DNA of 29,088 nucleotides from Candidatus Sumerlaeota bacterium. Its GTDB lineage: Bacteria; Sumerlaeota; Sumerlaeia; JAFGJS01. Shown here piece by piece: positions 1,590-24,853 of the stretch. Made by a program: the position numbers and the translations under genes. The stretch covers positions 1 through 29,088 of the forward strand of contig JAFGJS010000071.1 in NCBI GenBank assembly GCA_016928995.1, given 5' to 3'. The notes beneath the pieces are model-generated. The model saw only the letters and a program-made list of their open reading frames with translations, did no database searches and was not told the origin of the DNA. Every line of letters begins with the position of its first letter. Positions within the stretch are counted from its first letter, which is position 1.

Positions 1590-2285
1590 TTAATCCGATG
1601 AACGCCCCTGGTAGCGAATGATGTCGCCGCCGGAAACTGTGCCGTTAGTAGGATCGTATTGAGCCACGTCATAAAGAGGATTGCCGCTGATGACGCCATC
1701 CGGATCGTCCGCATAGTGATACAATCCTGGATCAGCAATTCCTGGAATCGGACCGCGTGCTTGATCCGGACCGTATGACACCAATACATACTTGTAGGAT
1801 CCCTCTGCTGATGGCGTAAACCAGCCTTGTGCCAGCAGCATCTCGATATTCATGTAATTGAATGTTCTGCTGACTTCCCATCCCCCCATGAACGTCATAT
1901 CCATAAATTCGTCTTCTGCGCCCGGGGCTACCGGCGCAAATGGGTCGAGCAGCAATGTGTTTGAAAGGTAGGCGATGGGGCTGCTCAAACAGGTGGCGTT
2001 ATAAATGCCGCCGCGATCACTTTGCCAATCCCCGGCTTCCGCATATAGCGTCATATTGGGGTAAACATTGTTATCAACAAAATACGCTTCTAACGCTGTG
2101 ATGGCCGCGCGCATATCTGCCTTGACGCGGCTGACTTTCGCGCGGGTTTGAAACTCGAGAAAGTTGGGGACGGCGATCGCCGCCAGAATGGCAATGATTA
2201 AAACGACGATCAAAAGCTCGATTAGAGTAAATCCTCTTTCCTTTGATCCCGGCAAAGATTTCCTTAGGTCGAATAAAGATTTCAT
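1590..2285 (-). CDS. GspG-like prepilin (type II secretion / type IV pilin family)
   Basis: 231 aa. A class III prepilin leader (MKSLFDLRKSLPGSKERG) is cut before the Phe of FTLIELL; the conserved Glu sits at mature position 5. The hydrophobic helix (LLIVVLIIAILAAIAVPNFL) is residues about 23-42, followed by QTRAKVSRVKADMRAAITAL and an AYFVDNNVYP segment typical of GspG-type major pseudopilins. The remainder is a long, aromatic, loop-rich globular domain (GPDQARGPIPGIADPG near the end), longer than the roughly 140 aa of standard GspG. The ATG is set by CGGAGGA 9 nt upstream. No secretion-machine genes are nearby, so this is an orphan pseudopilin. Its LamG neighbours hint at a surface role, but that is inference. 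Confidence 0.9.
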   Translation of the reverse strand: MKSLFDLRKSLPGSKERGFTLIELLIVVLIIAILAAIAVPNFLEFQTRAKVSRVKADMRAAITALEAYFVDNNVYPNMTLYAEAGDWQSDRGGIYNATCLSSPIAYLSNTLLLDPFAPVAPGAEDEFMDMTFMGGWEVSRTFNYMNIEMLLAQGWFTPSAEGSYKYVLVSYGPDQARGPIPGIADPGLYHYADDPDGVISGNPLYDVAQYDPTNGTVSGGDIIRYQGRSSD

Positions 2286-2556
2286 TAGATACTATCCTCC
2301 GAAAAAATTGCATTAAATGTTTTTTAAGGCGCCGCTTGGCGCGGCGTCCGGCGCGTTAACCTGTCGATCACGCACATGTTCATTTTGCTAAAAAAAAAGA
2401 AGCATCAACACTCGTGCATGAACTGCCACATGCAAAAAGACAATAAATTGTATCTCATTACATGCCTTCATTCCTGCGAATCGCCTTGCTTGCATCCATT
2501 TCGTTGATTTAATCGCGAAGGCTGCCTGGTTCGCCGGAAAATCAACTCCAGGATGA
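2286..2556. other. Intergenic leader between fecR-like gene and pseudopilin gene
   Basis: No gene is supported. On the minus strand it holds a TGCATG/CATGCA hairpin (2415-2434) with a nine-T tract (2390-2398) some 16 nt further on, a possible weak terminator of the sigma/FecR pair. It also holds a GC-rich hairpin in the pseudopilin leader (about 2328-2350, CGCCGC/GCGGCG core). I see no clear -35/-10 for the pseudopilin. Confidence 0.35.
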
Positions 2557-4227
2557 CTATCTGGTTTCCTCCTTTTGTTTAATTTGGTATAACGCCGCAT
2601 TCGCTGCGGATTGATGAATCAAGTCGATTTTACTGATTCGATTGATCTCGGGCTGGGACAGCGGACGGCTATAGACGCGCAGATCGTCAATCTTGCCGTT
2701 AAAATAGAAGGGGAAATGTTCGATATTTTCATCCCCCGGCATCCGGTTGCGGCCGATGAACCAATCCACATCTGCTTTGATGCTATGGCTGAACGGCACA
2801 GCCGCGCTCTGCATAAGCTTTCCGTTAATATATTGCCGCACATCGCGGCCGTTATTCGAGAAGGTCACGGTGTAATGCAGCCAATGACCAGTGATGGAGT
2901 CGTCCAGCGGGACTTCGATATCGTCAGTCAGGCCGCCTGTATCGAGCCCGCCTCCGCCGTCGCCATAACAAAAATCCGCCAAGGTTTCGTGAAAACCGAA
3001 ATGAATGCCGTATTTCAAATTGTAAGAAGCGAGAATGCGGTTATAGGAATTAGCGTTGTTCAGTTTGACCCACGCCATCACCGTGAAGTTATCTTTCATC
3101 TCATTTAGCGGATAGGGCTGAGTAATGCGAAACCAGGCTGGATCCTGAGGATCGAACTCGACACAAGAGCCAAACAGCACGTTTGAAATCGACTCCACGC
3201 CGGGCTGAAGCGACTGACCGCCTTCTTCATATCCGTGAAGCTGATACGGTCCACGGTCGATCAGCACCAATCGGCCATTCTCATCCAATTCGGTTTCCAT
3301 GGGCCAATAGGCCAGCAAGCCCGGCACTTGGCCGATCCAACGGTCTTCATCCAAATTCCGCACCCAAAAGGCCTTTTCCTGACCTTCAGAGCGGGATTGC
3401 GCCGGGCCAAGCCCGGAATCGCTAATGATGATAAACTGACCCGCAGTGATGGAGCGCATGATGGAAAAATCCTCGACGTCGACAGAGCCCTCCGCCACGT
3501 CCACGCGGATTCCCTCATCGAGATGCGTGACGCCGAAACTGGTTCCCGTTACGTGCACCAAGCCCCAATCGGAGACGACTTCGAAGCCCTCGCCGCCTTT
3601 TTCGACATCGAGCCATACTTTTCCACGATTAAATTGGATTTTGCTTTCGTTGATCTTCTGGACATCCGAATGCGCGGCCATAGCCAGTTGCACGGTTTGA
3701 TTGAAGGCGACAATCCGGGGAGTGTCTTGAGTGGCGATTTTGGGATAAACCTGCTTGGCCGGAAGGGTGATTTGCGCTGGTTGTCCTGTGTTCCACAGCA
3801 TGACAATCAGCGCCAGCGACAGCACGAATACGATCGAAGCGGCGAGAAGCGTGCCGAAAACCGGCTTGAGTTCCAGCGGAATCTGACGCCCGAAAACAGC
3901 GTCGTCGCTTGCCGGAAGCATGCGAAAGCGGCTGATCACCCAGCTCCAGAAGCGGTCCTTGAATCCCTCATCCTGCTTATCCTGTTCATGACTCGCGTCA
4001 TCCCGGAAGGCGTCGATCCGCACCTTGTGGATGACATAATCCACAAGCCGATCCGTTTGGGCGTCCAGTTGGTCGAGCCGGCGCTCTTCATAAGCGTTCC
4101 AATGCGCAGAGAGCGCCCGGATCGCCTCATCCTTGGACAGATGAGCAGCACTCGACAGCGCCGCCGCATCCTGTGGTGAAACGTCGTCTCTTTCGCTGGT
4201 TAATCTTTCCAGATCTTCGGGTTTCAT
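2557..4227 (-). CDS. FecR-type anti-sigma factor with C-terminal LamG domain
   Basis: 556 aa, single-pass membrane protein. Residues 1-120 are cytoplasmic, charged and helical; there is no ZAS-type HxxxCxxC zinc motif. A membrane helix follows at about 124-145 (GTLLAASIVFVLSLALIVML). The FecR domain spans about 172-270 and shows the family pattern FNRGKVWLDVEKGGEGFEVV, VHVTGTSFGV and RVDVAEGSVDV. A LamG domain runs from about 304 (GLLAYWPMETELDENG) to about 545 (FNGKIDDLRVYSRPLSQPE). The ATG overlaps the stop of the upstream ECF sigma gene (ATGA), so the two are translationally coupled and are expected to act as a pair: the protein would hold the sigma factor and release it on an extracytoplasmic signal. 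The LamG fusion suggests that the signal is a polysaccharide or matrix component; this is inference. Confidence 0.9.
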   Translation of the reverse strand: MKPEDLERLTSERDDVSPQDAAALSSAAHLSKDEAIRALSAHWNAYEERRLDQLDAQTDRLVDYVIHKVRIDAFRDDASHEQDKQDEGFKDRFWSWVISRFRMLPASDDAVFGRQIPLELKPVFGTLLAASIVFVLSLALIVMLWNTGQPAQITLPAKQVYPKIATQDTPRIVAFNQTVQLAMAAHSDVQKINESKIQFNRGKVWLDVEKGGEGFEVVSDWGLVHVTGTSFGVTHLDEGIRVDVAEGSVDVEDFSIMRSITAGQFIIISDSGLGPAQSRSEGQEKAFWVRNLDEDRWIGQVPGLLAYWPMETELDENGRLVLIDRGPYQLHGYEEGGQSLQPGVESISNVLFGSCVEFDPQDPAWFRITQPYPLNEMKDNFTVMAWVKLNNANSYNRILASYNLKYGIHFGFHETLADFCYGDGGGGLDTGGLTDDIEVPLDDSITGHWLHYTVTFSNNGRDVRQYINGKLMQSAAVPFSHSIKADVDWFIGRNRMPGDENIEHFPFYFNGKIDDLRVYSRPLSQPEINRISKIDLIHQSAANAALYQIKQKEETR

Positions 4228-4889
4228 CGCCTCTCCCTTGCCTGCGCTTTGCTGTCCTGAGTCACTGGTGGAGTTTGTTCGAAGCGTCGCAATCTTTCGG
4301 CGAGCAACGCCAAGGCCTGATAGGTCCTTACGGTCACCGTGCCGATCGGCATATTCAGCACTTCGGCGATCTCGCGGAACTTCAATCCGCTGCCGAAGCG
4401 TAGCGCCAGCGCCTCCCGTTCTGTTTCTTCAAGCAATTCCATTTCCTCGTTCACCCGACGCATCATCTGCATGTTATGTAACGCCTCCCGCGCATTCTGC
4501 GCGGGATCGACAGCGTCCCATTCCTCGTGGCCTGAGCCGAATAACATCACTTCATTTTTCCAGTTTTGACTGCGCAACGTCTCAAAAATCTTATTGCGGA
4601 CGATTCGATACATCCATGCACGAAACTGGGCGGGATTGCGCAATTGGCCGCGTTTATGCCAGATCTGCAGCCAGGCATCCTGAAAGACATCCTCGGCGGC
4701 GTCATGCAAGCGGATATAGCGCAGGATCATATTCATCACGCGCCCTTTTTCTTCGCGCATGAGAAGTTCGAACGCTTCCACGTCGCCAGCCTGATAACGT
4801 TTTATATCATCCAAATTCACTATAAAAATACTTCCACAATACTGATAATAAGCCCCTTCAATGCTGAATTCATCTGCTTTATCAAACAC
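4224..4889 (-). CDS. ECF-family RNA polymerase sigma factor
   Basis: 221 aa from the ATG at 4889. Sigma region 2 lies at about 40-107 (HDAAEDVFQDAWLQIWHKRG, FRAWMYRIVRNKIFETLR) and region 4 at about 150-205 (EETEREALALRFGSGLKFRE, then IAEVLNMPIGTVTVRTYQA, the helix-turn-helix). The first 23 residues are unusual for the family; a GTG at 4820 (giving VNLDDIKRYQAGD...) with GGAAG about 9 nt upstream would give a more typical 198-aa protein and may be the true start. The 3' end overlaps the FecR/LamG anti-sigma gene by 4 nt. Together they form a cell-surface signalling unit; the regulon is unknown. Confidence 0.92.
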   Translation of the reverse strand: MFDKADEFSIEGAYYQYCGSIFIVNLDDIKRYQAGDVEAFELLMREEKGRVMNMILRYIRLHDAAEDVFQDAWLQIWHKRGQLRNPAQFRAWMYRIVRNKIFETLRSQNWKNEVMLFGSGHEEWDAVDPAQNAREALHNMQMMRRVNEEMELLEETEREALALRFGSGLKFREIAEVLNMPIGTVTVRTYQALALLAERLRRFEQTPPVTQDSKAQARERR

Positions 4890-17682: not shown

Positions 17683-18396
17683 ATGCTCACCGGACTGACG
17701 ATTCGTGAACAACGGACTTTGCTGGTCTTGTTGGCGTTCTTGACGGCAGGAATGGCGCTGAGGCATTATTCGACGCTATCCGCGGAAGACGGTTTTCGAT
17801 TGCTGGAAGGGGACGCAGCGGGCTTTCAACAACTGTCGCAACCGCAACAGCGCGCTCAGCTGGAAGGAATGAAGGCGCCGAATCGCGAGCCTGGCGATTC
17901 TCTGATCGACATCAACAGCGCCGAAGAAGCGCAACTGACGCAATTGCCGCGCATCGGCCCCAAAACCGCCGCTCAAATCATCGCCTGGCGCCAGGCGAAC
18001 GGCGATTTTCACCAAATCGAAGACATCATGAAGGTTCCCGGCATCGGCCCCAAGACCTTCGATGGCTTCAGGGAATTAATCACTGCCGGCGGCGACGGTG
18101 CGCGTCCCATGCCGCAATCCCAAGCAACCAAGGCATCCACAGGGCCGGAAACTTCGCTGAACGCGCCGGTGACGACCTATCCTTCAACCGGTGAAACGGG
18201 TCTAATTATCAATATAAATACAGCCACACAAGCGGATTTTGAAAGCCTTCCGGGCATCGGACCGGCGATCGCGGAAAAAATAATCCAATATCGCCAGGCG
18301 CATGGTCCATTCCAGTCGACGCGGGATTTGCGGAAGGTTTCCGGCATCGGTGAGAAGAAATTGGAGAAACTTGAGCCTTGCATCCGTGTGGAATAG
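17683..18396 (+). CDS. ComEA-like membrane protein with two helix-hairpin-helix domains
   Basis: 237 aa. A membrane anchor lies at residues about 12-27 (TLLVLLAFLTAGMALRHYS). Two ComEA-type DNA-binding HhH units follow: residues 73-133 (SLIDINSAEEAQLTQLPRIG, then QIEDIMKVPGIGPKTFDGF) and 173-235 (LIININTATQADFESLPGIG, then DLRKVSGIGEKKLEKL), joined by a Thr/Pro-rich linker. ComEA binds double-stranded DNA outside the inner membrane during natural transformation; most ComEA proteins have one such unit. No comEC or other competence gene is adjacent, so a competence role is only possible. The ribosome site before the ATG is weak (GATGAGA). Confidence 0.85.
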   Translation: MLTGLTIREQRTLLVLLAFLTAGMALRHYSTLSAEDGFRLLEGDAAGFQQLSQPQQRAQLEGMKAPNREPGDSLIDINSAEEAQLTQLPRIGPKTAAQIIAWRQANGDFHQIEDIMKVPGIGPKTFDGFRELITAGGDGARPMPQSQATKASTGPETSLNAPVTTYPSTGETGLIININTATQADFESLPGIGPAIAEKIIQYRQAHGPFQSTRDLRKVSGIGEKKLEKLEPCIRVE

Positions 18397-18420: not shown

Positions 18421-18448
18421 TTGACAGCAAAGCTCTGCGTGGCATAAT
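18421..18448 (+). promoter_or_regulatory. Promoter of the five-gene envelope cluster
   Basis: Consensus TTGACA (18421-18426) and CATAAT (18443-18448) with a 16-nt spacer, 25 nt after the comEA-like stop. The predicted transcript starts near 18455 and has a leader of about 100 nt before the ATG at 18554. Confidence 0.75.
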
Positions 18449-18460
18449 TAGAGCTATTAT

Positions 18461-18525
18461 CATGTTTAGACAGAGACCACATCTGTCTATCATGCGAGCA
18501 GCATGCCTTCTTCGCAAGAAGATGC
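18461..18525 (+). promoter_or_regulatory. Two hairpins in the 5' leader of the envelope cluster
   Basis: First, TAGACAG (18467-18473) pairs with CTGTCTA (18483-18489), extended by CATG at 18461 and 18491. Second, CTTCTT (18507-18512) pairs with AAGAAG (18516-18521), extended by GCAT (18501) and ATGC (18522) with a 2-nt bulge. Both lie between the predicted start of transcription and the ribosome site GGAG at 18541. The first could also be a DNA operator. Confidence 0.45.
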
Positions 18526-18553
18526 GGAGTGCTTCTCGCGGGAGCGGATGAAG

Positions 18554-19681
18554 ATGACCAAACGTAAAATTTGGATGCTGAACGGGATGCTTGCTGCGTC
18601 CTGTTTCCTTGCGACTTCGGGATGGTCTCAGGGATTCACCCCTCTATTCGATCAACAACCTCCAGCGCCGCCGGCCTTCGGCGCGCCGGCTCCGGGCGGG
18701 AATGCTTTTAATCTTGGAACCCCAGGAGGCGTCGGCGTCAGCGACACCTACACGGAATCGCTGGGCGGTTACACTGTCAGCATCACGCCCTCGTATGGCA
18801 ATGGCTTTGCCAATCAACTCGTGTTGGACAATCGCCCCACATTCCAATGGGAAGCAGGCGGAGTCACCGTGCAAATCGCAACCAACCGTTTGCGAGTGGC
18901 AAACATGGATTACGGCCAGGTTTCACCGGGATCGGACATTACTGTGAATAACGGACAGGTGAGCGTCAACAACGAGCCCCGCCTCGGCCGTGAAGACTGG
19001 CGGGCGATGCTCTCCACGCGTAAAACCGTGCTCACCGGGGCCCGCGTGCAAGACCGCATCACGCATAAATTGCTGGACGACGTGTATTACATCCGGGTGA
19101 CGGATGACGAATTTAATCAGATGGTTCCGCTGCCCTCGGACGACGGCGAGTGGCCCGATCTGACTGCTAATGATAAAATCTACAGCAATTTCGACCAGAC
19201 CGACAAATATCTCAGTCCGGAGTCCAACCAGCTCAAGCTGCGTGTGATCCGCATGATCGAACTGGCTGAAAATCTGGGGCCGTTGGATTTCTATGGCGTG
19301 CATGCCGCGGCGACGGATCCTTTTTCCACGCTGCCGAATTACTACGTGGAGGAAGAGAATCGCGACAAGAAAATCCGCGAATGGGTGGATCAATTTTTGA
19401 AAGACTATCGCCGTGAGCCGGACAATCCGGACAGCACGGATTTTTGGCCGCTTTATGTGCCAGAACCGCCGCGCAAGCCGTATATGGCCGCGCCGGAATC
19501 GTTCGATGCGCTCTATCTGGACCGTTCCGAGGAGAGTCAACAGGAAATGACCGAGGCCCAACAGCAAGGTCCGCAAGGGCGCACCGTCATCGGACCTTCC
19601 GGCCAGCCGATCCCGACCACGGGCGACACGCTGATCTCAGGCCCCGGCGGAACCGTCACAACGAGCTATTACAGCCGGTGA
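18554..19681 (+). CDS. Secreted protein of unknown function, first gene of envelope cluster
   Basis: 375 aa from the ATG at 18554, 9 nt after GGAG; ATGs at 18503 and 18548 are less well placed. Signal peptide to about residue 26 (MLAASCFLATSGWSQ). A Pro/Ala/Gly-rich stretch (QQPPAPPAFGAPAPGGNAF) covers residues about 34-53. Then comes a beta-rich part (GGYTVSITPSYGNGF, VTVQIATNRLRVANM) and an acidic, mixed part (RVTDDEFNQMVPLPSDDGEW, KIREWVDQFLKDYRREPDNP). The tail is Gln/Gly/Thr-rich. I do not recognise a family. It is followed after 32 nt by the tail-anchored protein gene and is presumably co-transcribed with it from the promoter at 18421. Extracytoplasmic location is the only firm inference. 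Confidence 0.85.
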   Translation: MTKRKIWMLNGMLAASCFLATSGWSQGFTPLFDQQPPAPPAFGAPAPGGNAFNLGTPGGVGVSDTYTESLGGYTVSITPSYGNGFANQLVLDNRPTFQWEAGGVTVQIATNRLRVANMDYGQVSPGSDITVNNGQVSVNNEPRLGREDWRAMLSTRKTVLTGARVQDRITHKLLDDVYYIRVTDDEFNQMVPLPSDDGEWPDLTANDKIYSNFDQTDKYLSPESNQLKLRVIRMIELAENLGPLDFYGVHAAATDPFSTLPNYYVEEENRDKKIREWVDQFLKDYRREPDNPDSTDFWPLYVPEPPRKPYMAAPESFDALYLDRSEESQQEMTEAQQQGPQGRTVIGPSGQPIPTTGDTLISGPGGTVTTSYYSR

Positions 19682-19713
19682 CCATGAATTTCATAAAGGA
19701 CGTGTAAACAAAG

Positions 19714-20514
19714 TTGGCAGCGGAAGAAACTCGAACGCCAGAATCGCAAGGCATCAAACCAGCGCCTAGACCTGGACAACGGCGCCCCGCCGGCGGACAA
19801 CCACGTCCCGCTCCGGCGCAAAAGGGCGCGCCCGGTCGGCCAGCTGCGGCCCCGCGCAAGGCGCCGCGACAAGCCCCGCCGGCAAGCGCCCCCCCAGAAG
19901 AAACTTCGGAAAAAGCGGCGGCGGCGAGCGCGGATGGCAAGCCGAAAAAGAAAACCGACGAGCAGAAAATACAGGACATTCGCGCCAGCATGGTTGAATT
20001 CCTCGAGATCTGGAAAGAGACCAAGGGGATGCTGCTCAAAGCCTTCATGGCCAAAGAGCCGATCAGCGACGCGGAAGAGGAGAAATTCCTCACACAAAAG
20101 ACGCAGCTGATCCGGATGGGCAAACGGCTGGACATGCAAACGCCGAGCTACCTTGAAGTCGGCAACGACCAAATTAATAAAATCATGAAAGCCGCGGTGA
20201 ATCTCAAGATCCTCAGCGAAATGAACACCATCGCGAAAAAGGGATTATACTCAAACTGGCATATTGCATACCTGCAAATGCATCGCACTATCGGCGCGCT
20301 CGATGTCTTTGCCGATGGCTACCGTCCGAAGCGCGAAGTGAAGAAAAGATCGTCGTTCGAGAAAGCCGCGCAGAGCATGAGCGGCATGTTCGGCCATCGC
20401 ATCAGCGCATCGGGAGAAACGGCTGAAGAAAGCCCGGTGAAAACGATCATTATGATCGTGACCGGACTGGCGCTCACAGCCCTGCTCATCTGGGCGGCGC
20501 TGAATATCGGTTAA
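19714..20514 (+). CDS. Pro/Ala-rich tail-anchored protein, paralogue of the gene at 24050
   Basis: 266 aa from the TTG at 19714; AAAGGA lies 13 nt upstream and a 7-codon reading frame (MNFIKDV, 19684-19707) sits over the ribosome site, so the start is uncertain. Residues 1-80 are disordered, rich in Pro, Ala, Arg and Lys (APRPGQRRPAGGQPRPAPAQ). Residues about 82-205 form a helical domain with ISDAEEEKF (117-125) and NWHIAYLQMHRTIGAL (181-196). A single membrane helix closes the protein (243-263, IIMIVTGLALTALLIWAAL), so the bulk should face the cytoplasm if tail-anchored. EEEKF and the WH block recur at the same distance in the protein at 24050. I know no family name for it. Confidence 0.82.
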   Translation: MAAEETRTPESQGIKPAPRPGQRRPAGGQPRPAPAQKGAPGRPAAAPRKAPRQAPPASAPPEETSEKAAAASADGKPKKKTDEQKIQDIRASMVEFLEIWKETKGMLLKAFMAKEPISDAEEEKFLTQKTQLIRMGKRLDMQTPSYLEVGNDQINKIMKAAVNLKILSEMNTIAKKGLYSNWHIAYLQMHRTIGALDVFADGYRPKREVKKRSSFEKAAQSMSGMFGHRISASGETAEESPVKTIIMIVTGLALTALLIWAALNIG

Positions 20515-20598
20515 TGAATAGGAATACGATCCAGCTCTAAATAGATCATAAAAAACGATCGAGAACGGTTGACGCTTATTACTGCGGAGGAACTTGGC

Positions 20599-23500
20599 AT
20601 GAACGCTCAAATGGAAAACTGGACGCGACGCTTCCTGCTGTTGACCATGGCCCTGGCTCTGACGGCCGGCGGCTTCGGCTGCAAGAAAATCCAGAGCAAC
20701 ATGAAGCGCAACAAATTCGAAAAACTGCAAACCCAAGCGGAGCCTTACCGCCCCTTCCATCATGAGAAGGATCGGGCGGAGCAGGCCCAGCAACAGTATG
20801 ACGCCGGACAACAGGCGTTCAGCGGGGCTGATTTTGAAACGGCGCTCAACCGCTTCAATGAAGCCGTGAACATTCAGCGCGAAGTGCTGGATGAATCGCG
20901 GCGCAAGGAAGCCAAGGAGCAATTCGACGAAGCCACCGTGGAACGCAGAATCGCCGAGAAAAACGACGGCGCCACCTTGGGCGAAGGGCCGGAAGATTAC
21001 CAGAAAATCATCAGCATGCACGATGAGACCAAGGAGCTGTACGACAACGGCAAATACGACGATGTGATTGAGAACTCCAAGATCATCATCGAAGACGTGC
21101 GTCAGCTCCTGCTCAAACTCAAGAACCAGGCCGAGAGCAAAATTCAGGCCGCGAAGAGTCAGCGTGAATCGATGGAGGCGCACGAATGCTCGCGATACGC
21201 CCCGGAGTTCGTTCAGGACGTCGAGCGTCTGATTCAGGAGGCCGAAGCGCAGGCCTCGTTCGAAGTTCGCCATTATAAAAACACCATCGACCGCGCCGAT
21301 GAAGCGATCCGGCGCGCCGGAGAAGGCATCACTGAAGCGCAACGCGTCATCGCCCTGAACGAGATCAGCGAAGTCGAAACGCTGCAAGGCATCGCCATCG
21401 GCCTGGACGCGGAGAAATGGGTGCCCGAGGAGTGGAAGAAAGCCCAGCAAGATTATGAGACGATGAAGGACGTCTACGATCAAAAACAGGATTACGTCCG
21501 CTCTCGCGACATGGCGATCCAACTGAAATCATTCTGCGAACAAATGATCGTCGACACCCGCCGAGAGATCGCCTCGGATGCGATCGCCAAGCTCAACGCT
21601 GAATTCACACGCATCGTCAATGAAAACGCCAAACTGTACCTTGAGTCGGATGTGAACTCCCTCGACGGCATTTTAAAGGCGACACAGGATCTTTACGACA
21701 AACAGGCTGATGCAAATTACTTCAGCAACGAATACGAGCGTGTGAAAAACATCGCTGAACAAGGCCTGCTGGAATGCGAGTCGCTCTGGCGGAGTTTCGA
21801 TTCGTACACCGTCGAAGAAATTCAACAGGCCCGCAGCCGCCACGACGTGGCGCGCGAAGTGTTTGATAAGATGCAAAAGGTCTTTTGGCCCAAGGAAAAT
21901 GAATACATCAAACGCATCGATCTGGAATTTGAAAACAACAAGCAAACCTTGCAGACAACGCTGGACGCCACCCTCAGTCAAGTCGACCGGGACATCGAAC
22001 GAGCCGATCAGCTGCGCATCGAAGAGCAAAAGTATCACAACGCCATCAAACTCGCCCGTGAAAGCGGCGAACGCTCCAATGAGGCGCTGGCGCAGACCTA
22101 TAATGTCGTGGCGCACAACGCCATCAATGAAGTCGCCGACCAGCTCAGCCGCTGGGAGCGCGACGGCGGCAAGGAATGGGCCGACGAGCAGATTTTCGCC
22201 TGTCAATCCTCCATCGACGAAGCCATCACCCTGCGCGATCTGGAGCAATACGAGGAATCGATTCGCAAGTCGGCGGAAGCGCGCTGGAAACTTGATTTCG
22301 CCATCCAAAAAATCGAACAGAAAGCCGTAGCGGAAGTGCAAAGCGCCCAGCGGAAAATTCAACAAGCGCTGGATGAAAAAGCGCTGGTTTTCACCACTGA
22401 TGAAATCAAAGAAGCCGAGGCGCTCTATCAAGACGCGCAAAACCAAATGGAGCAGGAGCACCTTAAAGACGCCGTGCTGCAAGCGCAGCAGGCCCAGGAC
22501 ATTGCCGATCGCGCTCGCGAGACCTCCACGGAACTCTGGACCCGTGATGAAATCCAGCAGGCCGTGATGCAAGTCCGCATGTCCCAGGACGCCGGCGCCG
22601 CTCAATACTCGGGCGAACTGCTGGACAAAGCGGAAAACGAGCTCGCCGCGGCGCGCAAACTGCTGGATGAAAAGAAATACAACACGGCCCGCCTGGTCGC
22701 CAGCCAGGTGCAGGAAGACGCCAGCCGTTCACGTTATTACTTGATCGATCAAGCCGAAGACCGCACGGACATCGCCCGCCAATACGGCGGATGGAGTTAC
22801 GACCGTCCGACGATGACCGAGGCCATTCGCAACAACAAAGTGTCGCGTGAAATGATGGAACGTCAGGACTACGAAACCGCCAATCAATTGGCGCGCGAGG
22901 CCATCGCGCTCGCCGGCCAGACCCTCGATTTATCCAAACGCAAAGCCTATCAGGAGGAACTGGTTAAAATTCAGGAGACCATCAAGATCCTGATGGGCTC
23001 CGGCGCCAAGTACTATCAGAAAGATCAAATCGAGAAAATGATGCAGGAATCCGACGCGCTTCGCCGGGCTTTCCAGGCGGATGATTTCGCGGAAAACTTC
23101 GATGAATATTTCAACCGCATGCAGGCGCTCTATAAGGATCTGACCGACACGTTGGCGATGACCGGCGATGTGCTGGAGGCGTATATCAACAAGGAGAAAC
23201 AACGCGTTGAGCGCATCGAGGGGATGGATGAATCCGTGTTCTTACGAACCGAACTCGACGAAATCAATTCGCTCCTGAACATCGCGCATGTCGAGTTCAA
23301 TCTCAAACAAAACTACTTTCAATCCTACGACAGTCTGCGCAAGGCGGACGGCCGCCTGAATAAAATCGAAAAGGGTTTAGAGCAAGACATCTACCTCGAC
23401 GATGTGCGCGAAATCCTCACGGAGCTGTCCACCGCCAAGAGCAAATTCTCCGACATTCTGAGCATGAATCGCAAGACGCTGAAATCGTTCACCCAGGGAC

Positions 23501-23835
23501 ACGGCGGGCAGAACCAATATGTCGCCATCGTCGGCCGTCTTTCGCCGTACGAGTTCCGCGCGAAGATGGACGAGCTCTTCACGCGCGCCAGCATCCTGGC
23601 TCCGCCGGCGGGTTCGGGGCTTGACATCGTCCAAGATGAGCTGGTTATTATGCTGACGGATGCGCGGCGCGCCGCGATGAATTTCGAAAAATTGATGATT
23701 GTCGAAGAATACGACAACCAGACCATCGGCTCGATCATTGATCGCGCGTATGATCTGATGGCAAAAGTAAACAAAGCTCACGCCGGACTGGCGGAACAAT
23801 TGCTGCATAAAGGCACGAGCACGCATAGCATTTGA
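20599..23835 (+). CDS. Giant helical-repeat putative lipoprotein (1078 aa)
   Basis: 1078 aa from the ATG at 20599, 8 nt after GGAGG. N-terminal export signal (FLLLTMALALTAGGFGC); the Cys at about residue 28 could be lipidated although the box (GFGC) is not canonical. Next is a TPR-like pair (AQQQYDAGQQAFSGADFETA). The rest is almost wholly alpha-helical with degenerate repeats of a form YxxEEixxAxxxyxxA...dYxxAxxxAxxA, seen starting near residues 198, 273, 593, 668, 730 and 804; examples are KWVPEEWKKAQQDYETMKDV and YSGELLDKAENELAAARKLL. These resemble DUF4398-like periplasmic helical repeats by eye. Very rich in Glu, Gln, Lys and Arg; no C-terminal membrane helix. Probably a long periplasmic or outer-membrane-tethered rod or scaffold; function unknown. 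Confidence 0.9.
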   Translation: MNAQMENWTRRFLLLTMALALTAGGFGCKKIQSNMKRNKFEKLQTQAEPYRPFHHEKDRAEQAQQQYDAGQQAFSGADFETALNRFNEAVNIQREVLDESRRKEAKEQFDEATVERRIAEKNDGATLGEGPEDYQKIISMHDETKELYDNGKYDDVIENSKIIIEDVRQLLLKLKNQAESKIQAAKSQRESMEAHECSRYAPEFVQDVERLIQEAEAQASFEVRHYKNTIDRADEAIRRAGEGITEAQRVIALNEISEVETLQGIAIGLDAEKWVPEEWKKAQQDYETMKDVYDQKQDYVRSRDMAIQLKSFCEQMIVDTRREIASDAIAKLNAEFTRIVNENAKLYLESDVNSLDGILKATQDLYDKQADANYFSNEYERVKNIAEQGLLECESLWRSFDSYTVEEIQQARSRHDVAREVFDKMQKVFWPKENEYIKRIDLEFENNKQTLQTTLDATLSQVDRDIERADQLRIEEQKYHNAIKLARESGERSNEALAQTYNVVAHNAINEVADQLSRWERDGGKEWADEQIFACQSSIDEAITLRDLEQYEESIRKSAEARWKLDFAIQKIEQKAVAEVQSAQRKIQQALDEKALVFTTDEIKEAEALYQDAQNQMEQEHLKDAVLQAQQAQDIADRARETSTELWTRDEIQQAVMQVRMSQDAGAAQYSGELLDKAENELAAARKLLDEKKYNTARLVASQVQEDASRSRYYLIDQAEDRTDIARQYGGWSYDRPTMTEAIRNNKVSREMMERQDYETANQLAREAIALAGQTLDLSKRKAYQEELVKIQETIKILMGSGAKYYQKDQIEKMMQESDALRRAFQADDFAENFDEYFNRMQALYKDLTDTLAMTGDVLEAYINKEKQRVERIEGMDESVFLRTELDEINSLLNIAHVEFNLKQNYFQSYDSLRKADGRLNKIEKGLEQDIYLDDVREILTELSTAKSKFSDILSMNRKTLKSFTQGHGGQNQYVAIVGRLSPYEFRAKMDELFTRASILAPPAGSGLDIVQDELVIMLTDARRAAMNFEKLMIVEEYDNQTIGSIIDRAYDLMAKVNKAHAGLAEQLLHKGTSTHSI

Positions 23836-23930
23836 TCGAAGGACAAGCCCGCGGGCTGCGCGCTGCAACCGGTCTTCCGTATTCGGACCGCGGCCGCGAA
23901 CAAATCAACACGAAACGGACGCCTATCGCC

Positions 23931-24029
23931 ATGAACATCGTATATAGCGCAGAAGTCCTGGTTATTGTCGCCGTCATTGTCGCCGCCGCTTACATCCTTT
24001 ACACCTTTGACCTGTTCAGCCCTGATTAA
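23931..24029 (+). CDS. 32-aa single-span membrane micropeptide
   Basis: 32 aa: a short polar start (MNIVYSAE), one hydrophobic helix (VLVIVAVIVAAAYILYTF) and a short acidic tail (DLFSPD). It sits 95 nt after the giant lipoprotein gene and 20 nt before the next Pro-rich protein gene, on the same strand. The ribosome site is poor (ACGGA about 12 nt upstream). A longer in-frame reading from a TTG at 23832, overlapping the previous gene, would give 65 aa, but its extra part is Arg-rich and less protein-like. The position in a tight cluster and the clean transmembrane pattern favour a real small membrane protein; conservation would be needed to be sure. Confidence 0.55.
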   Translation: MNIVYSAEVLVIVAVIVAAAYILYTFDLFSPD

Positions 24030-24049
24030 TAAGGAATTTGAGCGTACAT

Positions 24050-24781
24050 ATGGCAGACAATCTTAACACAAATCCATCTTCCGCAGGCTCCCCGCAGCAG
24101 CCTCCGCGTCCGGCGCGTCCAGCTGTTCAACAACCCGGCATGGGCCGGCAACCCAGCGCTCCGCAGCGGCCTCGTCCAGCCCGGCCCGCGGGTCCAAGGC
24201 CGCAAGAAGCGCCTAAGCCGGCAGGTCCGGCGCAAGCAAAGCCTGTCGCTGGAGAAACACCGCCAGCCGACGAAAAAAAATCATCGAAACAATCCGGCGG
24301 CATGTTCGGCAAAGCCAAAGGCGGTGGAAAAAAAGCAGGCGTTAATTTTCGCAATCTGGATTACCGCATCCAGCTCTGTACTGCATACACCAACGACTGG
24401 CGGCAATTCTTCGACTTTTTCGGCGAAGGTTTTGAAGGGCGGCGAATCACGCAGCAAGAAGAAGAAAAGTTTCACGTTCTGCTGGTGGACTTGGCGAACA
24501 AACATTACGTTTACACTGAACTCATCAACAATCATCTCGAACCGAAGTACAAAAAGGCCATCTTTGACATTCTTTGCGACTGCATCAGCCTCTCGCACGT
24601 CAAGAATCTCTCCGTATCCGAGTACAGCCGTTTGATTCAACGCTGGCACGAGGTTTTCATTTACATGAACAAGGCTCTCGGCATCCTGGTCAGTCAAAAA
24701 GCGGAGATCGAGGCCAATCAGAAGACGAAGGAATCGATGAAGAAACACCCCAAGAAAGCGCCGGAATCCGGCAAGGAATAA
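24050..24781 (+). CDS. Pro-rich soluble protein, paralogue of the gene at 19714
   Basis: 243 aa from the ATG at 24050 (AAGGA 14 nt upstream; a TTG at 24038 is an alternative). Residues 1-95 are disordered and Pro/Ala/Arg-rich (PPRPARPAVQQPGMGRQP), then Gly/Lys-rich. Residues about 100-215 are a helical domain with ITQQEEEKF (133-141) and RWHEVFIYMNKALGIL (198-213). In the protein at 19714 the same two blocks are 61 residues apart; here they are 62 apart. Unlike that paralogue it has no C-terminal membrane helix but a Lys-rich tail, so it should be cytoplasmic. Last gene of the cluster before a strong hairpin terminator. No known family recognised. Confidence 0.83.
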   Translation: MADNLNTNPSSAGSPQQPPRPARPAVQQPGMGRQPSAPQRPRPARPAGPRPQEAPKPAGPAQAKPVAGETPPADEKKSSKQSGGMFGKAKGGGKKAGVNFRNLDYRIQLCTAYTNDWRQFFDFFGEGFEGRRITQQEEEKFHVLLVDLANKHYVYTELINNHLEPKYKKAIFDILCDCISLSHVKNLSVSEYSRLIQRWHEVFIYMNKALGILVSQKAEIEANQKTKESMKKHPKKAPESGKE

Positions 24782-24827
24782 TAGAAACGGCGCGTCAACA
24801 AGCACCAATAATTTAGCAGAAAATTCA

Positions 24828-24853
24828 GGCCTGACGGCGAGCGCCGTCAGGCC
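24828..24853. terminator. Bidirectional terminator between convergent genes
   Basis: GGCCTGACGGC (24828-24838) and GCCGTCAGGCC (24843-24853) form a perfect 11-bp stem with a GAGC loop. It is flanked by GATTTCT on the plus side and, on the minus strand, by TGAATTTTC. It lies between the envelope cluster (plus) and the epimerase gene (minus). Confidence 0.8.

Follow-up and report, generated by a model that had tools for sequence, protein, structure and literature searches.

A five-gene cassette lies in the window, that is, the whole stretch of DNA analysed here, which comprises 29,088 nucleotides of contig JAFGJS010000071.1 from a Candidatus Sumerlaeota bacterium. Positions 18421-24853 form a single + strand unit of five open reading frames, which we denote P1 to P5 and all of which are found at the positions noted earlier. 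The features of the unit and its upstream neighbour are as follows:

17683..18396, + strand: upstream neighbour, encoding an N-terminal hydrophobic segment and two HHH_3 domains (ComEA-like, by Pfam)
18421..18448, + strand: candidate promoter, sigma-70-like TTGACA-16-CATAAT with extended TG (consensus match only)
18452..18547, + strand: leader with predicted RNA structure (-35.4 kcal/mol, z -2.8 against shuffles)
18548..19681, + strand: P1, secreted protein with a Pro/Gly-rich N-terminus and a conserved core (R166, D178, DDG, D273, W279, PP)
19714..20514, + strand: P2, protein with a DOM domain (19948-20322) and a C-terminal transmembrane helix; TTG start
20599..23835, + strand: P3, 1078-aa lipoprotein with helical repeats of about 72 aa (DUF4398-like)
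23931..24029, + strand: P4, 32-aa single-span membrane peptide
24050..24781, + strand: P5, soluble protein with a DOM domain (24338-24703)
24828..24853, no strand assigned: terminator hairpin between convergent units (11-bp GC hairpin, z -4.1)

The original prediction read this region as one transcription unit, and the open reading frames, the promoter and the hairpin terminator are indeed where it had placed them. The candidate promoter agrees with the consensus at 11 of 12 positions and is the top one of 4 matches on both strands, against a background, at a lower threshold, of 3.3 matches per shuffle of the region. The putative leader is predicted to fold into two hairpins, more stable than shuffled sequence, and has no match in Rfam; the T tract of the terminator hairpin is weak on the + strand. 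The longest frame of P1 begins at 18503, position 18548 being an alternative start. The flanks of the cassette are mostly unconserved: the window and three other loci (L062, L063 and L098) have LeuRS and/or the ComEA-like gene ahead of the cassette, the ComEA-like gene immediately before P1, and because this gene does not adjoin P1 in most relatives, it is probably an ancestral neighbour rather than part of the cassette. Elsewhere in the window (1590-4889, - strand), three successive genes code for an ECF-type sigma factor, a FecR and LamG-like (Laminin_G_3) protein, and a product that bears a type IV pilin methylation motif.

None of the five proteins scores above the cut-off against Pfam, NCBIfam, PHROG or PADLOC, the PADLOC models including those for anti-phage defence, and no significant match was obtained in a sequence search of the PDB with the P3, P1 and DOM profiles. 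Neither could we find, in the open-licence literature, a paper on the function of DUF4398 or on the cassette. The earlier view that the cluster has no recognised counterpart therefore holds up, save for a partial match of P3 relatives to DUF4398 (PF14346).

The cassette extends well beyond the organism in which it was noticed. A scan of species genomes with the P5 profile returned 20 loci, nearly all of them from Candidatus Sumerlaeota (Sumerlaeia, Sumerlaeaceae, BRC1), with one Candidatus Eisenbacteria record. By profile search, P3 is present in 38 of 40 Sumerlaeota (BRC1) genomes, including every one of the 20 whose completeness reaches 90% and whose contamination does not exceed 5%. An early idea, that of a phylum-restricted system, was dropped once the cassette and DOM turned up in other phyla: the DOM profile, run against 386 genomes, matched 14 that lie outside Sumerlaeota, and four of these (G366, G229, G214 and G351) hold the cassette. 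Within the phyla to which these four belong, here called the second and the third, the P3 profile matches 13 of 14 and 2 of 2 genomes, respectively.

The arrangement P1-P2-P3-P4-P5 on one strand is the same in all 26 Sumerlaeota loci detailed, which include one of another class (L098) and one in which P1 is cut by the contig end (L068). The 13 loci of the second and third phyla have the same order, except that P1 is missing from L195 (of G351), where P2-P5 remain, and P5 of L222 is lost to the contig end. This count draws on ten further second-phylum loci that were read, nine with the same layout, P4 included, L222 ending inside P4 at the contig end; the tenth, L223, in which P3/P2 is broken, was left out of the table. 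Chance falls far short of explaining a set of five genes that is repeated, in unchanged order, at about 39 loci in three phyla. On the question of synteny that the original prediction had raised, the genes stay together in close relatives, across Sumerlaeota, and in two further phyla.

P1 is always the first gene and is present in every cassette locus other than L195. Its relatives share the conserved core and vary at their low-complexity ends; the core ends in PP..P motifs, often with an aromatic C-terminus. Matches of P1 to a phage head-tail joining protein were weak (E 0.0002-0.004, under the cut-off, with the window sequence only), and we attribute them to chance. The constant first position and the secreted, partly variable nature of P1 would suit a dedicated export system, in which DOM, P4 and P3 serve as a conduit, or as a chaperone-and-rod apparatus, that brings P1 to the surface. 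We consider this very improbable, given that the cassette encodes no ATPase, channel or beta-barrel and that G351 dispenses with P1 while keeping the other four genes.

Cys28 of the P3 lipobox, which follows a hydrophobic signal, is invariant in an alignment of 19 rows, and a lipobox-like pattern is found in P3 of most Sumerlaeota loci and of all 13 loci from the other two phyla. The predicted model is nearly all helix, with a repeat unit that, counted by eye from the list of helices, recurs roughly 13 times and spans about 67-74 residues, two units reaching about 90; the pTM of the model is 0.36, so that the overall shape is unsure, but if the chain were packed like spectrin, the rod could be tens of nanometres long. 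DUF4398 is matched by 12 of 19 P3 members (best E 9.4e-16), whereas P3 of the window, about 13 repeats long, scores 18.1 bits, below the curated gathering cut-off of 27.9. Fold searches with P3 list EzrA, spectrin, talin and vinculin at generic scores, EzrA with a Z of 8.5 over 422 residues at an rmsd of 22.9, a score that unrelated helical repeats also reach. P3 resembles EzrA and the spectrin-like proteins in being a predicted chain of helical bundles and differs in being an exported lipoprotein, whereas EzrA is cytoplasmic, with an N-terminal anchor.

These properties bring into play the main rival to the reading that we come to favor, namely, that the cassette is a stand-alone structural tether, comparable to Tol-Pal or a periplasmic spectrin, which links the inner membrane to the outer one in the service of cell shape or division and merely shares DOM, a generic adaptor put to a separate use in pili. 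The presence of the cassette in nearly all genomes of three phyla is as expected of a housekeeping structure, and the fold matches of P3, generic as their scores are, point the same way. In its general idea, the cassette is also like Tol-Pal, with small membrane proteins, a long, helix-rich periplasmic link and an outer-membrane lipoprotein; unlike Tol-Pal, none of its proteins has a Pfam match to the Tol or Pal families (TolQRA/TolB/Pal).

All 39 tabulated loci encode P4, a single-span peptide that mostly measures 32-51 residues, and its span is the only one retained throughout. The span starts with Glu in most members and with Gln in a few, and the C-terminus is basic in most relatives. A type IV prepilin, suggested by the combination of Glu and a helix, was ruled out by eye, with no leader Gly at -1 and no +5 spacing.

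P2 and P5 proved to be homologous, a search with P5 finding P2 at E of about 1e-7, and the domain that they have in common with P6, a third paralogue encoded elsewhere in the genome, is DOM, a helical domain with the motif W-E-F-WH. The original prediction had overlooked both this homology and the third homologue, which is found in type IV pilus operons. Trp21, Glu42, Phe45, Trp103 and His104 (numbered from window position 24338) are invariant across P2, P5, P6 and the DOM proteins of another phylum. The AlphaFold2 model of DOM is a confident four-helix bundle (pLDDT 94); fold searches against the PDB returned generic four-helix bundles only (best Foldseek E 0.07; best Z 11.7, in the range of unrelated bundles), and comparison with viral structures likewise gave generic matches only. 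The placement of the proteins in the cytoplasm, inner membrane and periplasm, as first proposed, is supported, and certain of its particulars call for revision. The cytoplasmic Pro-rich platform is not a general feature: the Pro-rich N-terminal arms of P2 and P5 are confined to the lineage of the window and relatives lack them, the conserved part being the helical DOM. As for the tail anchor of P2, the C-terminal span is predicted, at a strict threshold, in 19 of 26 Sumerlaeota loci and in none of the 13 loci of the other phyla. In one Sumerlaeota genome, P5, otherwise the soluble partner, bears at its C-terminus an extension resembling a TM2 domain, which would be a membrane anchor (L070:6415-7164).

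DOM genes outside the cassette bear on its possible function. P6, which consists of DOM, one span and an apparently periplasmic part, is present in most Sumerlaeota genomes. Of 35 Sumerlaeota loci, 22 have it immediately behind pilC, which is usually itself preceded by pilB/pilT, and dprA is the usual next gene after P6; in one further locus (L127), a secretin gene lies directly upstream, and in the window's own genome (L123), P6 adjoins dprA, not pilC. The succession PilB-PilC-P6-DprA recurs in both third-phylum genomes, and P6-DprA in one second-phylum genome (G440, L227). In a fourth phylum, that of the Eisenbacteria record, DOM was detected in 6 of 47 genomes, in three of them after tadC and in the other three after pilT, at the end of PilM-PilN-PilO-secretin (PilQ)-PilT operons; the PilT-DOM pair is found in two more genomes of other families (L198 and L197). 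Pfam confirmed T2SSF, T2SSE, secretin and PilM among the neighbors tested. The recurrence of DOM genes behind pilC, pilT and tadC across lineages ties DOM to type IV filament machines; in independent lineages it lies inside type IV pilus or Tad operons, which holds for genes of the P6 type, not for P2 and P5. A rough estimate made by hand, in which pilus genes are taken to make up about 1% of the gene neighbors in a genome, gives a probability of the order of 1e-5 or less that about eleven contexts of lone DOM genes would by chance include four independent pilus contexts. One study (PMC8092238) reports type IV pilus twitching genes in every one of its Sumerlaeota MAGs. In three genomes, tadC and the DOM gene are separated by a gene for a small secreted protein, about 118-128 aa long and unmatched in Pfam (L122:7597-7953, L153:11083-11439 and L155:8495-8881).

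About half of the lone DOM contexts adjoin non-pilus genes, namely, korAB, rplU/HU, tatCA and guaB/dnaE, so that DOM may be a general interaction module. In three Eisenbacteria-like genomes, soluble DOM paralogues adjoin putative korAB, coding for 2-oxoacid:ferredoxin oxidoreductase subunits, with no pilus gene nearby (L151:8689-9354, L154:8917-9609 and L156:215-1588), and further lone DOM genes stand beside rplU and an HU-like gene, or beside an HU-like gene and tatC/tatA (L204:3998-4630, L205:529-1176, L206:73-498, L199:218-787 and L202:7964-8617).

In a tree of DOM, built on 119 columns only, P6 proteins of three phyla cluster apart from P2 and P5. As in Sumerlaeota, the typical DOM complement of a second-phylum genome is exactly three genes, of which the cassette contributes two and the third lies elsewhere, and a third DOM gene occurs in nearly every cassette-bearing genome of the second and third phyla. 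It is this company, together with the repeated ties of DOM to PilC, PilT and TadC, that speaks against the stand-alone tether. That alternative retains in its favor the unrelated genes beside which DOM is also found and the cassette's own surroundings, with no pilus genes in any locus seen, and we rate it as rather unlikely.

The same neighborhoods bear on another possibility, that the cassette and P6 are accessories of DNA uptake (natural transformation), working alongside DprA and the ComEA-like protein as part of a competence pilus. The neighbor of P6 is dprA in the majority of Sumerlaeota loci, as it is in the two third-phylum genomes and in the second-phylum genome G440, and P1 is immediately preceded by a ComEA-like gene with two HHH domains in the window and three other loci. 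Most cassette loci, however, are without a ComEA-like neighbor, and topA comes after dprA in L194 and L196; since the dprA-topA order is a common arrangement regardless of the gene upstream, the link between P6 and dprA may be passive. A role in DNA uptake seems improbable.

The reading that we favor, at a probability of about 45%, is that the five genes encode one envelope-spanning complex whose DOM adaptors dock on a type IV filament machine. P3 would be a periplasmic helical-repeat rod, held by lipid, probably in the outer membrane; P4, a tiny connector in the inner membrane, of a topology that we infer; P2 and P5, two four-helix-bundle adaptors on the cytoplasmic side; and P1, an exported partner. 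With the P4 span the only one kept throughout, the most economical model of a physical assembly would run from P2/P5 in the cytoplasm through P4 in the inner membrane to P3 in the periplasm and P1 as the exported component. The likeliest docking site for the DOM adaptors would be the filament machine's inner-membrane platform or motor; P6 probably docks on PilC, which would be the precedent for docking of P2 and P5, and by this functional link to pili, the cassette would tether, gate or align the machine across the envelope.

Compared with the known type IV pilus and Tad machines (PilB/PilT, PilC, PilM-N-O-P-Q; TadA-B-C), the likeness lies in the DOM genes directly after pilC, pilT and tadC in several lineages and in the layout from the cytoplasm through the inner membrane and periplasm to an outer-membrane lipoprotein. 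Unlike these machines, the cassette lacks genes for an ATPase, a platform protein, a pilin and a secretin, the five proteins giving no match to the T2SSE ATPase or T2SSF platform domains or to the prepilin N_methyl motif, and DOM matches no known family of type IV pilus components. Were the link to pili proven, the cassette would count as a novel accessory within a kind already known; for now, it matches no known kind.

The fixed gene order over three phyla and the retention of so small a peptide as P4 in 39 of 39 loci mark a basic envelope machine that has no name in family libraries. Tentatively, we would regard it as part of the core equipment of at least three phyla: its 32-residue membrane peptide would couple two cytoplasmic adaptors to a long periplasmic lipoprotein rod, and the whole would thereby connect or control type IV filament machines, with DOM as a new, general class of pilus-platform adaptors. 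If DOM is, indeed, a docking module for PilC, PilT and TadC, the W-E-F-WH motif becomes a testable marker for such adaptors elsewhere, and the domain itself offers a handle on the wiring of type IV filaments to the envelope in phyla without genetics.
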